Source of the DNA: Meghimatium bilineatum
Taxonomy: Eukaryota > Mollusca > Gastropoda > Stylommatophora > Philomycidae
Assembly: GCA_034231615.1 (NCBI GenBank)
Contig: CM067298.1
Span: forward strand, 55,022,883 to 55,086,882
Length of the DNA stretch: 64,000 nucleotides
Direction of reading: 5' to 3'
Part shown: positions 7,357-61,185 of the stretch, in pieces
Layout: the number at the start of each line of letters is the position of its first letter
Position numbering within the stretch: position 1 is the first letter of the stretch
Made by a program: the position numbers and the translations under genes
Notes under the pieces: generated by a model
The model's input: only the letters and a program-made list of their open reading frames with translations
Told to the model about the DNA's origin: nothing
The model's database searches: none

Positions 7357-7502
7357 GTAAGCCATTATAATTTGTTTGATGTTATAATTTCTTATTTTGC
7401 ATGAATAATTAATTTAAAATCTCGGCTTAAAACATGAATACGATGAGCACTGCTCACCATAGGTAATTCATAGCTGTCCAACAGAGATCTACAACATTTA
7501 CA

Positions 7503-7955
7503 GTATGCATTCATGTTGGGTCAATGTCACACAATCTCCCAATGGACTGTTACGGACCCATACAAAAATGACGGCTAGATAGTTTTTTAATTAACCTTCA
7601 TATTTGTCTTCTGGTGATCTGTTATTCTTTAACCTCTGCATTGGTAGGGCACGATACAAGATAACTTTACTGTGAAACCTCATATTTGTATGCATTCATG
7701 TTGGGTCAATGTCACACAATCTCCCAATGGACTGTTACGGACCCATACAAAAATGACGGCTAGATACTTTTTAAAATTAACCTTCATATTTGTCTTCTGG
7801 TGATCTGTTATTCTTTAACCTCTGCATTGGTAGGGCACGATACAAGATAACTTTACTGTGAAACCTCATATTTGTCTTCTGGTGATCTATTATTCTTTAA
7901 CCTCTGCATTGGTAAGGCACGATACAAGATAACTTTACTGTGAAACCTCATATAT
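7503..7955. repeat. Tandem duplication, about 187-base unit, 2.5 copies
   Basis: Copy one begins ATGCATTCATGTTGGGTCAA (about 7505), copy two about 187 bases later (about 7691), and a partial third copy runs from about 7863. Copies are nearly identical. It lies in the intron between attractin exons 7278-7356 and 8883-9017. Confidence 0.9.
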
Positions 7956-55836: not shown

Positions 55837-56929
55837 CTTCTTCTTCTTCTTTCGTTCACTTGAAACATGTCTATATCTGTAATTCTGTCTCCTTAATAAA
55901 ACTCACTGTCTTTTGTAGTACATACAGTGTCCCAAAGAGCTTTGATTCCAGTGTTGTTTCCTCTGGCCAATATGTCTGCCTCAGCGTTTCATGCTCAGAA
56001 CACTCTTGAAGTATATATTTGGCACTCTGTGCTGCCTGTCCACATGTACACATGGCCAATCTTGAACTTTGTATACATGTGACTGCGGAGTCGGTTGTGA
56101 CCTGTTCTGAGATGTAGAATTATAACTTGTTCTGATCTTTTTATGTGATAGTCATCTTGTGTTGGTGTTTGTGGCTTTCTTATTGACTTGATCATCTGTT
56201 TTTTCTGATGGTAGGTGATTGGTATATCTGGTTGGTCTTCGGCAGCACCTTCCTTAGCCAGTTGGTCTGCTTTTTCATTTCCTGGTATTCCACTGTGAGA
56301 GGGTATCCACTGCATGGTTACCCTATACTGGTAAGACAATTCGCTAAGTAGTTTTTTTCAAGTCTGTTAGTTTTCCAGACTGGAGAGCTTGAAGCACTGA
56401 CCTTGCATCTGTCAGGAATACCACAGGCTGTAGGCCAGAGTTGGAGTTCAGCAGTTTTTTAGCTGCCACATTAACTGCCTGGATTTCTGCATCATAATTA
56501 TTGCAGAACTTTCCTGTCTGTGTTCTGATTGTATCTCTAGGCTTGTATGGATATTCTATATATACACCTGCACCTCCATTCCTCACTGCATTCTGTGCTG
56601 ACCCATCTGTGTATACTCTGACCCATATATCTTATGGATATTCCTCATCCAGGAAACTGAGGGTGACTGTCCTTCGCTGCACACTGTTCTGTTCGTCCTC
56701 ACTTAGTATTCCTTTCAGACCGATCCATGATATATCATCTCTATATATTGGGTCTACAGGACCTTTCACCACTTTAACAGCTTTGATTTTAGATCGATCA
56801 TATATTGATCAGTTATATTTCGTTTTGCGCAATTCAAGTTTTTATGTTAGCCTCTGAACATCCGGGAAACTTCACTTCCTTTAGAAAACTGAAGACGACT
56901 CGCGTGGCTGTAAAAGAAACAATTTCTTT
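55837..56929 (-). mobile_element. LINE, 5'-truncated, with nearly whole RNase H domain
   Basis: The - strand shows RVYTDGSAQNAVRNGGAGVY (Asp), NNYDAEIQAVNVAAKKLL (Glu), VVFLTDARSVLQALQSG (Asp) and, after a frame change near 56340, MQWIPSHSGIPGNEKADQLA (last Asp), then CGQAAQSAKYILQECSEHET and ESKLFGTLYVLQKTVSFIKE. The 3' tail is GAAGAAGAAGAA at the left. GACCGACCAT (55826-55835) and GACCGCCAT (56930-56938) may be its target duplication, which would place it in the 5' untranslated part of the piggyBac. Confidence 0.85.
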
Positions 56930-56943
56930 GACCGCCATACGCT

Positions 56944-57679
56944 GTGTTTGTTATTTCTGAAATTCTGGAGATAATGGCAGCGCCCACTTCTTCTAGATAC
57001 AGTGCAGAACAAGCTATGGTTATGTTTCAGAGCTTGCTAATTAGTGAATCGGATAATGATGATTCCGATAGTGATTATAGGCCTAGTGATGACTTGCAGA
57101 AAAGTAAGAAACCAAAGCAAACCGGTGTAGGTTTTATTAAACATTTAGCAACTGATTGCATCAGATCAAGGAATGTTAGTTCCTCTGAAGAAGCATCTAA
57201 TAGTAGTGATAAATCTACTGATTCAGAGGATTTAGCTGGTACTTTAGGCCTACTAATGTTACAAGTAGGCCTGCATCAAACTTCCACAAATCAACAAGGT
57301 AGGCCTAGAACTGATGCTGTGTGGCGTGAAGTCCTAGAAGAAGAGATTATAGGAGTGTCTCACTTCAGACAGATACATTCTGGCAGCAAACTTGGCCTTC
57401 CTGACAATGCCTCACCTCTCCAATATTTGCTATCCTTGATGACAGAACCAATAATTGACAATCTAATAGCCAATGTAAATTCTTATGCCCAGCAGAAATT
57501 GAAAATGAATACACCTCCAAGGAAATATTCTACTTATTCGAAATAGATTCCGCTCGACCGAAATATTTTTATGAAGTTTCTCGCCACCCTGATAAACATG
57601 GGTTTGGACCCCAAACATTCTATAAATGATTTTTGGTCCACAAAAACACACAGAAGTAGCCCCTGGTTTGGATCAATTT
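56944..57679 (+). pseudogene. piggyBac transposase, N-terminal part
   Basis: From MAAPTSSRYSAEQAMVMFQS (ATG at 56974; an upstream in-frame ATG at 56944 is less likely) through an acidic Ser/Asp-rich stretch (ESDNDDSDSDY) typical of piggyBac N-termini, to GVSHFRQIHSGSKLGLPDN and MKFLATLINMGLDPKHSIND then FWSTKTHRSSPWFGSI. One in-frame stop (TAG, 57544-57546) occurs after TYSK. The frame is then cut by the inserted transposon at 57680. Confidence 0.88.
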
Positions 57680-60060
57680 CACAAGGCAACACACAAAAAT
57701 CATCACAGATAATTTTATATGGGTTTTGTAGTATTTGGTTAGCTGATTTCAAATCTGTCTTTAGTTTTTTTCTACCACGTAACATTTTTTTGTAATAGCT
57801 AATTATAATATCTTTCAACAGTGGTTATGACCACAAATCGAGTACAATGTTTTATTTAGATTGGTATCGATACTTTATTACTGGCTGTTACAATTTTGTT
57901 CAGTTTCGGGTCACGTGATTTAGTATCGATGCTACCATTTTTGTGTATTCGATAGGATAGTAAATCCATTTATACACGTGTGGTGTTTGCTTAAAGTAAT
58001 TACGACAAGTATATTATGAGATTTCGTTGTTTTGTACTTTCTTTTATTTTAAAGGTTGCAAAAACCTTGCATTTGTGTACTTGATAACTTATTTTGTGTA
58101 CTTATTAACTTATTATCATGCCTAGAAGATGCATCAATCATCCAAACTGTTTCTGTTTTGTGTGTGGTTCATTTGTGACGAAATCACAGCGGCACACAAT
58201 TTCAGATGATCTAAAGAAGATATACATATTGTATTTTGGCTGTCCACTGGGTGATCAGGATAAATCTTGGGCTCCACATATCATATGTACCAGTTGTTCA
58301 AGCGGACTACGTGACTGGCTAAATGGCCGCAAGGCAGCTATGCCATTTGCAATTCCAATGTTATGGAGGGAACCGCGAGACCATGTCAATGATTGCTACT
58401 TTTGTCTGGTGAACACAAATGGATTCTCTGCTAAAAATAAGCAGAACATTGTATATCCTAGCTTAGATTCTGCCATCAGGCCTGTTCCACATGACGATTC
58501 ATTGCCTATTCCTTTACCTCCTTCTGGTGGACTCGTATCTATGCAAGATGGGGAGGAATGCAGTGAAAACACAGCTGTTCACAATGCAGACTCAACTGAT
58601 CCAGATTATACTGTTGATGAATGTTTAGAACCTAAGACTTTTACACAGACAGAGCTGAATGATCTTATTCGTGATCTAAATCTGTCTAAAGATAAAGCAG
58701 AACTTCTTGCTTCAAGGCTTAAGCAAAAGCATTTGCTTGCAAGGGACGTTAACATAACTTATTATAGAAAACGAAATCTCAACATGACGACGTTCTTCAA
58801 TGTTGACGGCTCATTGAGTTATTGTCAGGACATCGATGGTCTCTTCAACAGTTTATCACAAGTGCATGATCCATCAGAATGGCGTCTCTTCATTGATTCC
58901 TCGCGAAGAAGCTTAAAGGCAGTTCTTTTGCACAATGGAAATTTAAAACCAAGCATACCAGTTGCACATTCTGTTTATCTGAAAGAATCTTATTACAACA
59001 TGAACAGTTTGCTTGAAGTTATCCATTATAAAACACACCAGTGGAACATCTGTGGTGATCTAAAGGTCATTGGCATGTTGATGGGCATGCAAGGAGGATT
59101 CACTAAATACTGCTGTTTCCTATGCTTATGGGATAGTCGAGCAACAGCGGAACATTATGTCAAACGTGTCTGGGAGCCCAGGCATATCTATACGCCAGGA
59201 GCAAGCAGTGTCCAAAATATGCCCCTTGTTGATCCACAGAAAATATTTCTGCCACCTCTCCATATTAAGCTAGGACTGATGAAAACCCTTGTGAAGACCA
59301 TGGGTAAGACAAACTCAGAAGGTTTTCAGTACCTTGTTAATAAATTCCCAAACATCACTGCTGCAAAAATGAAGGAAGGGATATTTATAGGTCCACAAAT
59401 CAGATCTGTTTTACAAGATGAAGGTTTCAAACAGTCTCTGTCAGGAGCTGAGCTAGAAGCCTGGGAGGCATTCAAGTGGGTCTGTGAAAACTTTCTTGGT
59501 AATCATAAGTCCCCTACGTACAGGGAAGGAGTTCAGCGTCTAATAGATTCTTACCAGAACCTTGGCTGTCGCATGTCATTAAAAGTGCACTTCTTGCACT
59601 CCCATGTAGATTTCTTCCCAGAAAATCTTGGTATGGTGAGTGAAGAGCAAGGAGAACGTTTTCACCAGGACATTCAGTTAATGGAGCGCCGTTATCAAGG
59701 TTTGTGGAATGAGAGTATGATGGCCGACTTCTGCTGGATGCTATTCCGTGATAATCCAGGCGAAGAATATAACAGAAAATCAAATTCCAAGCATTTTTGA
59801 AGAAACATTCTACATATCTATGCTGTGATGTGAGTATATTTGATTTAGTCTAGAAGATGTGAATCATTTGCTTAATTGATGTTTGCGATTCTCGAAAAAA
59901 TACAGCCAAGTTCAGTGAAAACTAACATCACTCATAACTTTAAAACTTGACGTGATAGAAAAAAACTGATACCAGATCTGAAATCAGCGCCAAAAAATCC
60001 TTTAGCAAAGTGTATTTTGGTTTCAGATGATTAAAAAAAGTTTTATTTTGTTGCCTTGTG
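57680..60060 (+). mobile_element. Complete CMC-group (Chapaev3-like) DNA transposon, 2381 bp
   Basis: Both ends carry the same 12 bases in inverted order (CACAAGGCAACA at 57680-57691; TGTTGCCTTGTG at 60049-60060), and subterminal AATCATC is also shared. TTT flanks both sides (57677-57679 and 60061-60063). Removing the element and one TTT joins GSI to FSRTKFLMIYQSMLHA in frame, which is how uninterrupted piggyBac transposases read, so the ends are exact. A 3-bp duplication and CAC termini are known for CACTA and Chapaev3. It encodes one unbroken protein (58118-59800). It looks recent and may be autonomous. Confidence 0.85.
58118..59800 (+). CDS. Transposase of the Chapaev3-like element, 560 aa
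   Basis: Single exon; the ATG has A at -3. An N-terminal zinc-binding module is suggested by C13-FV-C16 and C57-TS-C60 (with C5, C11, C93-YF-C96 near). A linker rich in Asp/Glu spans about 140-190. The catalytic core is inferred as D260 (EWRLFIDSSRRSL), D314 (NICGDLKVIGML), a C333-FL-C336 pair just after it (YCCFLCLWDSR), H382 (LPPLHIKLGLMK) and a Glu near 509-510 (MVSEEQGERFHQD). A D/D/E core with a C-x2-C between the second Asp and a conserved His is described for CMC transposases. Proteins with this plan (opening MPR-C-NHP-, MPFAIPM-WREP-DHV-DCYFC) occur in many arthropods and cnidarians, usually left as uncharacterised. No stop, frameshift or missing core residue is seen. No AATAAA is obvious before 60060. 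Confidence 0.8.
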   Translation: MPRRCINHPNCFCFVCGSFVTKSQRHTISDDLKKIYILYFGCPLGDQDKSWAPHIICTSCSSGLRDWLNGRKAAMPFAIPMLWREPRDHVNDCYFCLVNTNGFSAKNKQNIVYPSLDSAIRPVPHDDSLPIPLPPSGGLVSMQDGEECSENTAVHNADSTDPDYTVDECLEPKTFTQTELNDLIRDLNLSKDKAELLASRLKQKHLLARDVNITYYRKRNLNMTTFFNVDGSLSYCQDIDGLFNSLSQVHDPSEWRLFIDSSRRSLKAVLLHNGNLKPSIPVAHSVYLKESYYNMNSLLEVIHYKTHQWNICGDLKVIGMLMGMQGGFTKYCCFLCLWDSRATAEHYVKRVWEPRHIYTPGASSVQNMPLVDPQKIFLPPLHIKLGLMKTLVKTMGKTNSEGFQYLVNKFPNITAAKMKEGIFIGPQIRSVLQDEGFKQSLSGAELEAWEAFKWVCENFLGNHKSPTYREGVQRLIDSYQNLGCRMSLKVHFLHSHVDFFPENLGMVSEEQGERFHQDIQLMERRYQGLWNESMMADFCWMLFRDNPGEEYNRKSNSKHF

Positions 60061-61185
60061 TTTTCAGCAGGACCAAATTCTTAATGATTTACCAATCAAT
60101 GCTTCATGCGGCTGGAGCTTACGCACAGGGTGAATGTAAAATAGAGCCGTTCATAAATGAAGTAGTTGTGAGCTTTCAGAATGCATTCTATTCTTCTAAA
60201 AACATATGTACAGATGAGATGGTTATAGGTCACAAGGGAAGATTTAGACACAAGTACTATAATGCAAGCAAGCCAAAAAAATACCATATAAAGTCATACG
60301 GACTCTGCGATTCCATCACCGGATATGTTTTCAACCTACTGGTATATTTTGGTGTGGACAAAACATACAGGCTGGAAACTGACACAAAGTCTACCCATGC
60401 TGTCAAAATCTTTGACAAACTATTAGAAGGCATCACAGGACATCACCATTTGTTTGCTGACATGTATTATTCTTCCTTACCTCTTGTCCAGTTTCTGCGG
60501 CAGAGAAATCACCATTATACTGGAACTGTCAATGTGAACAGATGAGGGTTTCCACCAGAAATCAAAAATAAGAAAATAGCTGTCAATCAACCAAAATGGT
60601 TCATAAATGAGGAAGATCAAGTTATGTGTGTCAGCTGGAGAGATAAAAAAATTGAAGAAACCTTGCCAACTGGTAACAACATGTGGAAGCGCAACATGTG
60701 AAATTAGAATTGAGGGTAGAAGTGAAGTCCGGAAACCATCACTCATTCATATTTACAATATGTCAATGAATGGATGTGATAGAGTGGATCAGATGATTTC
60801 ATATTATGGAAACCACACAAGAAAAACAGTAAAGTGGTGGAAAAAAGTATTTATGTGAGTGTTGGAGATAACACAACTCAACGCCTACATTTTATACACA
60901 CTGAGTCGCCCTCACACCGAGAAGCCTATGCCCCTTTCAAACTTCAAGGACATATTGGTAGAGGAACTCTGTAGTTTATTTGAATTAGAGGCACCTAATA
61001 ACATTGATGCTGCTTTATTGTCCAAGCCAGGAAGAAAGCCAGTAAATACAGAGCTTGAGAGGTATCAGGGGACCATCCATCTCATTGACTTCAATGGAAA
61101 AGACAATGTGCTCACTGTGCTACTAAGCAAATACGAAAGCGAAGTAGCTACTACTGCATATGATGTTCACATAATCCACATCTGA
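60061..61185 (+). pseudogene. piggyBac transposase, catalytic and C-terminal part
   Basis: Continues FSRTKFLMIYQSMLHAAGAY, then KNICTDEMVIGHKGRFRHKY (first catalytic Asp), GLCDSITGYVFNLLVYFG, GHHHLFADMYYSSLPLVQFL (second Asp), GTVNVNR, and after breaks MNGCDRVDQMISYYGNHTRK (third Asp) and KWWKKVFM, EITQLNAYILYTLSR. Breaks: TGA at 60543-60545, a frameshift near 60640-60660, TGA at 60856-60858. The Cys-rich end typical of piggyBac is not recognisable. All three DDD residues are still present. It cannot make a full protein. Confidence 0.9.

Follow-up and report, generated by a model that had tools for sequence, protein, structure and literature searches.

A recently multiplied Chapaev3-type transposon of Meghimatium bilineatum, with insertion junctions that may record hairpin processing of the flanking DNA

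Background

A stretch of 64,000 nucleotides of the Meghimatium bilineatum genome (hereafter the window) contains a reading frame of 560 codons that lies between short inverted termini and interrupts the remnant of another transposon. This locus raises the questions of whether the interrupting segment is a mobile element, to which class it belongs, and what its insertion junctions across the genome can tell of the way in which its transposase cuts DNA.

The element and its host site

The element and the interrupted host frame comprise the following features (positions in the window):

57680..60060, + strand: complete Chapaev3-type DNA transposon of 2381 bp, delimited by exact ends and by the genome copies
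57680..57691, + strand: left terminal inverted repeat, 12 bp, CACAAGGCAACA
60049..60060, - strand: right terminal inverted repeat, 12 bp, TGTTGCCTTGTG on the + strand
57677..57679, strand not applicable: target site duplication TTT, left copy, in the context A-TTT (one TTT is absent from empty paralogues L129-L132)
60061..60063, strand not applicable: target site duplication TTT, right copy, in the context TTT-T (from the empty paralogues)
57742..57788, + strand: left subterminal inverted repeat, 47 bp, identical at 37 of 47 positions to the reversed 59942-59988
59942..59988, - strand: right subterminal inverted repeat, pairing with 57742..57788
57562..57679, + strand: host, 5' part of a decayed piggyBac-type transposase frame (the joined frame matches PF13843)
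60064..60545, + strand: host, continuation of the piggyBac-type frame

The termini form an exact inverted repeat running inward from 57680 on the left and ending at 60060 on the right. Together with the TTT on both sides and the single 560-aa frame, this confirms the base-exact borders given in a preliminary description of the locus. The subterminal repeat attains a score of 49, against a maximum of 31 over 500 shuffles, and its left copy is a possible binding site for the transposase.

Removal of the element and one TTT in silico makes the host frame continuous (...PWFGSIFSRTKFL...), and the rejoined frame matches positions 40-239 of the Pfam profile DDE_Tnp_1_7 (piggyBac-type) without a break (E 1.2e-33), although this host copy is itself decayed, with stops at about 57546 and 60545. 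A search with the rejoined flank gave 298 first-look candidates and 40 scored paralogous empty sites of 94-97% identity, 34 of which are equal in length to the matched part of the query. All four empty paralogues that were read at the window site (L129-L132) contain exactly one TTT fewer, and for this reason we regard TTT as the target duplication of the window copy. The continuity of the host frame, as previously proposed, is hence supported by both the Pfam match and the empty paralogues. Elsewhere in the window, a frame on the - strand (55995-56315) was seen by eye to contain an RNase H-like sequence, HSGIPGNEKADQLAKEGA, and is probably a LINE fragment.

The transposase and its classification

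The following features were delineated in the protein and its reading frame, all of them on the + strand:

58118..59800, + strand: transposase reading frame, 560 aa plus stop, single exon (open reading frame)
58118..58405, + strand: N-terminal Cys/His-rich region with C5, H8, C13, C16, C57, C60, C93 and C96 (residues read from the protein)
58895..58897, + strand: D260, proposed first catalytic residue (predicted from sequence)
59057..59059, + strand: D314, proposed second catalytic residue (predicted from sequence)
59114..59125, + strand: C(2)C motif, C333-C336 (by eye)
59258..59263, + strand: LH motif, L381-H382 (by eye)
59588..59605, + strand: H(4)H motif, H491-H496 (by eye)
59654..59656, + strand: E513, proposed third catalytic residue (predicted from sequence)

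The three acidic residues are proposed on the basis of the order D..D..C(2)C..LH..H(4)H..E. A Pfam search with the 560-aa protein recovered no family above the cut-off, only zf-AD at E 0.29, and a sequence search of the PDB matched no chain. An AlphaFold2 model built without an alignment (pLDDT 39.6) was too poor for fold comparison. Among the viral and prokaryotic contigs scanned no relative of the protein was confirmed, motif scans of these contigs yielding 19 loci, none with a tblastn match below E 0.1. The one other relative detected in the same genome is a decayed fragment (L060, positions 7398-7811) that is 41% identical to the transposase over 145 N-terminal residues, implying that the genome houses at least one further family, of greater age. 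The N-terminal Cys/His-rich region is perhaps equivalent to the Chapa zinc-finger domain of Chapaevs, which is described in the available part of PMC4411706.

The element fits Chapaev3 of the CMC superfamily by its CAC ends, its A-TWA-T-like target, its length and three protein motifs, C(2)C, LH and H(4)H. This is in line with the earlier assignment, which rested on inverted ends starting with CAC and a 3-bp duplication. The same three motifs are named for Chapaev3 in the accessible text of PMC4079192, according to which most Chapaev3 elements are also single-exon, as is the window element. The further suggestion that this element may define the family was overstated: Chapaev3 with a transposase of similar length and the same features had been described earlier (PMC4079192), and reports of Chapaev (2007) and Chapaev3 (2008) are cited in PMC4411706.

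Copies in the genome and their age

Further copies were sought in the genome (1.61 Gb in 32 contigs). It contains 339 exact matches to the 29-nt left end and none to the reversed control. The DNA search gave 475 first-look candidates and, after scoring, one short fragment and 40 copies of 99-100% identity whose matches stop no more than 5 bp from either end; the protein search gave 78 scored matches, 67 of them without an internal stop. Combining both searches yielded 81 matched copies, and junctions were read in 80 of these. The copy left out, L069 (G000:C3:44945750-44949629), is interrupted near element position 294 by an insertion of about 1.5 kb that separates its left end, the exact left end lying further out. 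The search of the same genome that the preliminary description suggested thus returned both copies and empty sites, with flanks that differ between copies, and these observations, along with the numbers of matched copies and exact left ends, place the 560-aa protein in a mobile element.

The 80 sampled copies are those scoring best against the window copy, so that ages estimated from them are biased low. Sixty of them form a star, lying 0.21% from the majority sequence with a mean of 5.1 substitutions per copy, and 269 of the 287 distinct changes are singletons. This pattern indicates one recent burst, and recent multiplication from one source is well supported. The coding changes in the 60 copies amount to 115 nonsynonymous, 58 synonymous and 9 stops; the resulting N/S of 2.0, lowered from a neutral expectation of 3.3, perhaps reflects selection or the same bias of sampling by similarity. 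CpG transitions account for 30 of the 307 substitutions though the element has only 47 CpG sites, which suggests CpG methylation in this host. Partner ends sought at full-length distance (15 right and 5 left) were found in 3 and 2 cases respectively and absent in 15 of the 20, implying that internally deleted or truncated copies are probably common. Two individual copies have unusual surroundings: 1) full copy L035 (G000:C15:29083047-29086603) is followed, about 140 bp past its right end, by a 39-bp piece of the element's right end, perhaps what is left of a neighbour that was excised or deleted; 2) at the left flank of L003 the insertion adjoins CTAACCCTAACC, which resembles telomere repeat units.

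Insertion junctions and the target site

Reading both ends of the 80 copies gave 160 junctions. The match reaches both end bases in 66 copies, falls short at one end in 14 and at both ends in none. Exactly the left CAC is missing in six copies (L017, L028, L036, L081, L087 and L097/098), a loss that a one-strand cut 3 nt inside the end would explain. Among the 66 copies the flanks overlap by 3 bp in 18, 2 bp in 14, 1 bp in 15, 0 bp in 17, 4 bp in one and 6 bp in one. Shuffled pairs of flanks lead one to expect 5.8 exact 3-bp duplications, and none of 2000 shuffles reached 18. The window copy falls in this exact class; the 3-bp duplication claimed for it therefore stands, but it is not the rule of the family, being exact in only 18 of 66 copies.

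The exact duplications display an A before and a T after the triplet in 14 of 18 cases, and the triplet is TWA in 3 of the 18 and TTT in the window copy. In the 0-bp class A and T are both present in 4 of 17 copies and at least one of them in 16, which implies that the target signature is often preserved on one side only. Consistent with such a target, TTAT opens 15 and TAAT 10 of the 160 junctions, against 1.7 and 1.4 per interior position. These counts establish insertion at A-NNN-T, often A-TTA-T or A-TAA-T, with a 3-bp duplication. At many junctions flank bases have been lost, or extra palindromic ones are present.

The empty sites of individual sister copies display the same variety: 1) L086 has the target A-TTA-T and an exact duplication. 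2) L005 has A-TTA-T with one base lost on the left. 3) L071, with an empty paralogue identical at 159 of 161 positions, has A-TAA-T with one base lost on each side. 4) L127/128, for which there is one paralogue only, has A-TTA-T with two bases lost on the left. 5) L024, with paralogues of about 88% identity, would have lost four bases on the left and two on the right if its target was A-TAA-T. 6) L039 has an additional AA in front of TTATTG; the corresponding bases in four empty paralogues are CA, CA, CT and CC. 7) L081, which lacks the CAC, has a 7-bp duplication with AAG microhomology, and L028, lacking it likewise, seems to carry filler. The junctions of L016, L037, L084 and L111 are ambiguous. 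Pooled empty-site searches were dominated by a few repeat families, and most of the copies pooled gave no paralogue.

Palindromic additions at the junctions

The extra bases follow a pattern. Read outward from the element, AATTAT opens 13 of the 160 junctions, against 0.26 per interior position. AA precedes TTAT in 13 of 14 junctions versus 16 of 113 interior sites; among the remaining 146 junctions, 28 begin with AA (Fisher 4.6e-8). Genome-wide, the two bases in this place are TT at 18 of 18 left ends and AA at 22 of 24 right ends; 10 of these 40 TT/AA ends are already in the 80-copy sample. If AA/TT were target bases, a full TAA duplication would not be expected on the opposite side. Among seven copies with ATAATT at the left and a readable right flank, the latter has TAAT in four (L087, L107, L154 and L157), AAT in one and AT in two, both AT cases being weak; hence TT comes on top of a TAA duplication in at least four copies. 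One copy, L026, enters two counts, since its left flank is ATAATT and its duplication can be read as an exact ATT. We read the two AA/TT bases as probable additions that form a palindrome of the flank end.

On the TAAT side five junctions parse as palindromes of 2-4 nt, with L095/096 really intact and L097/098 ambiguous; 4-nt palindromes on this side fit L012 and L115/116, and 2 nt on both sides fit L088. A strict parse, demanding a 3-bp duplication in the A..T context and a palindrome of at least 2 nt, is satisfied by 6 of 48 copies with a shuffle mean of 1.5, and 0 of 400 shuffles reach 6; the control with the plain complement is also raised in this test (4 vs 1.0), which speaks against the hairpin reading. 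A broader test that admits 1-nt additions and ignores the A/T context is not significant (7 vs 5.5 expected). Where one TWA-T side is intact (22 copies), the opposite side has likewise stayed intact in 3 copies, has lost one base in 4 and two bases in 4, carries a palindrome in 4 and differs in some other way in 7; the trimmed classes are about as frequent as expected by chance and prove nothing alone. L011, L030 and L166 do not fit the hairpin reading. Flank-side palindromic additions and nibbling next to intact element ends were found, with some controls weaker or contrary.

A proposed mechanism and its rivals

Palindromic additions without a spacer are the mark of hairpin ends that were opened off-centre, and combined with nibbling they produce the coding joints of V(D)J recombination. 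P-addition, nibbling and open-and-shut joints are named in PMC3906580. As the additions lie on the flank, and the element end is intact and still joined, we infer hairpins on the flank and aborted cuts. We consider it reasonably probable that the element is a recently multiplied, likely autonomous Chapaev3 (CMC) cut-and-paste transposon whose transposase forms flank hairpins and frequently aborts its cuts. The predicted course is as follows: 1) the 560-aa DDE transposase would bind the ends and cut just outside the CAC; 2) as in cleavage by RAG and Transib, the flanks would end in hairpins after the cut; 3) excision would often be aborted, and the flank hairpin opened about 2 nt off-centre and sometimes nibbled; 4) the opened flank would be rejoined by end joining to the element end still present, producing an open-and-shut joint. 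The proposed signature is seen in sister copies, the window copy having an intact duplication. On balance we lean slightly towards the view that natural open-and-shut joints made by a Chapaev3 transposase are preserved in large number across this genome. Copies with exact duplications are not younger than the rest (means of 5.9 vs 4.9 substitutions, p 0.23), which speaks against steady later re-cutting, and the joints may accordingly form during or soon after insertion.

That raggedness does not rise with copy age speaks for the main rival, imprecise integration, in which the 3-nt gap at one end is broken after strand transfer and repaired by end joining, with neither hairpin nor re-cutting. 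Trimming of such a gap fits the losses of 1-3 bases, and the left end of L081 looks templated and joined by microhomology. Nonetheless, this process leaves unexplained the palindromic additions, in both the 13 of 14 junctions and the 40 of 42 ends genome-wide, as well as losses on two sides of one copy (L071, L024), and we consider it unlikely.

The AA/TT bases could alternatively belong to the target, with a preferred palindromic ATAATTAT site and a frequent 4-bp AATT duplication. AATT is indeed the commonest junction tetramer (19 of 160), the overlap is 4 bp in L013 and 6 bp in L021, and AA may stand naturally in the target of L013, L021, L034 and L089/090. What makes this explanation improbable is that no copy read at both ends pairs ATAATT on the left with AATTAT on the right, that TAAT stands opposite ATAATT in the four of seven readable cases given above, that the empty paralogues of L039 lack the AA, and that overlaps of 4 bp are not enriched (1 vs 2.3 expected) while those of 3 bp are (18 vs 5.8).

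Hundreds of near-identical copies could recombine, and recombination or alternative transposition between copies would then leave unmatched left and right duplications; yet both flanks come from one site wherever an empty paralogue spans it (L001, L005, L024, L039, L071, L086 and L127/128), making such flank shuffling very improbable. Random small deletions after insertion would account for some junction losses of 1-3 bp but are scarcely credible when an exact 3-bp duplication is missing from 48 of 66 copies and the 61 fully read copies show 0-2 gap openings each over the element.

Implications and comparison with known systems

While the class of the element is already known, the junction record appears to be new among the literature matches listed. 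Among the open-access matches listed, none describes the way in which a Chapaev3 transposase cuts its substrate; two of those listed contain both "Chapaev" and "hairpin", once each, and concern general transposable element classification and Repbase (PMC5718144, PMC4455052). Should the hairpin reading be true, the flank-hairpin chemistry of RAG and Transib would extend to the CMC superfamily, and an animal transposon would process its flanks in a manner like that of coding joints. Because the family is young, with many frames still intact, and its junctions seem to preserve traces of the chemistry, the cutting mechanism can be tested directly. For annotation, the lack of a clean duplication at a copy is not necessarily a sign of error.

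The other CMC groups CACTA and Mirage also have CAC ends and a short duplication, but the A-TWA-T-like target and the length of the present element fit Chapaev3 better. The RAG signal likewise begins with CAC; RAG and Transib make 5-bp duplications, unlike the 3 bp seen here. The window transposase has no sequence match to any solved structure, and the likeness lies in how the systems would work: ends beginning with CAC, and palindromic additions together with nibbling on the side of the flank (P-addition and nibbling are named in PMC3906580). The closest resemblance is to Chapaev3 itself (Garfield, Merrow, Conan; Repbase Chapaev3-1_PM etc.), with which the element shares CAC/GTG ends, the terminal inverted repeats beginning 5'-CAC, and a 3-bp duplication between A and T; Garfield_BM has 556 aa and 2289 bp, against 560 aa and 2381 bp in the window (PMC4079192, as far as the available text goes). 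For all Chapaev3 examined, that text reports TWA duplications between A and T, whereas here the triplet is TWA in 3 of the 18 exact cases and the majority of junctions are altered. In the available part of PMC4411706, the Transib superfamily is drawn with Chapaev3 among its clades and with RAG1 inside the TransibSU clade, and the junctions described here bear on the proposal that Chapaev, Transib and RAG share an origin.
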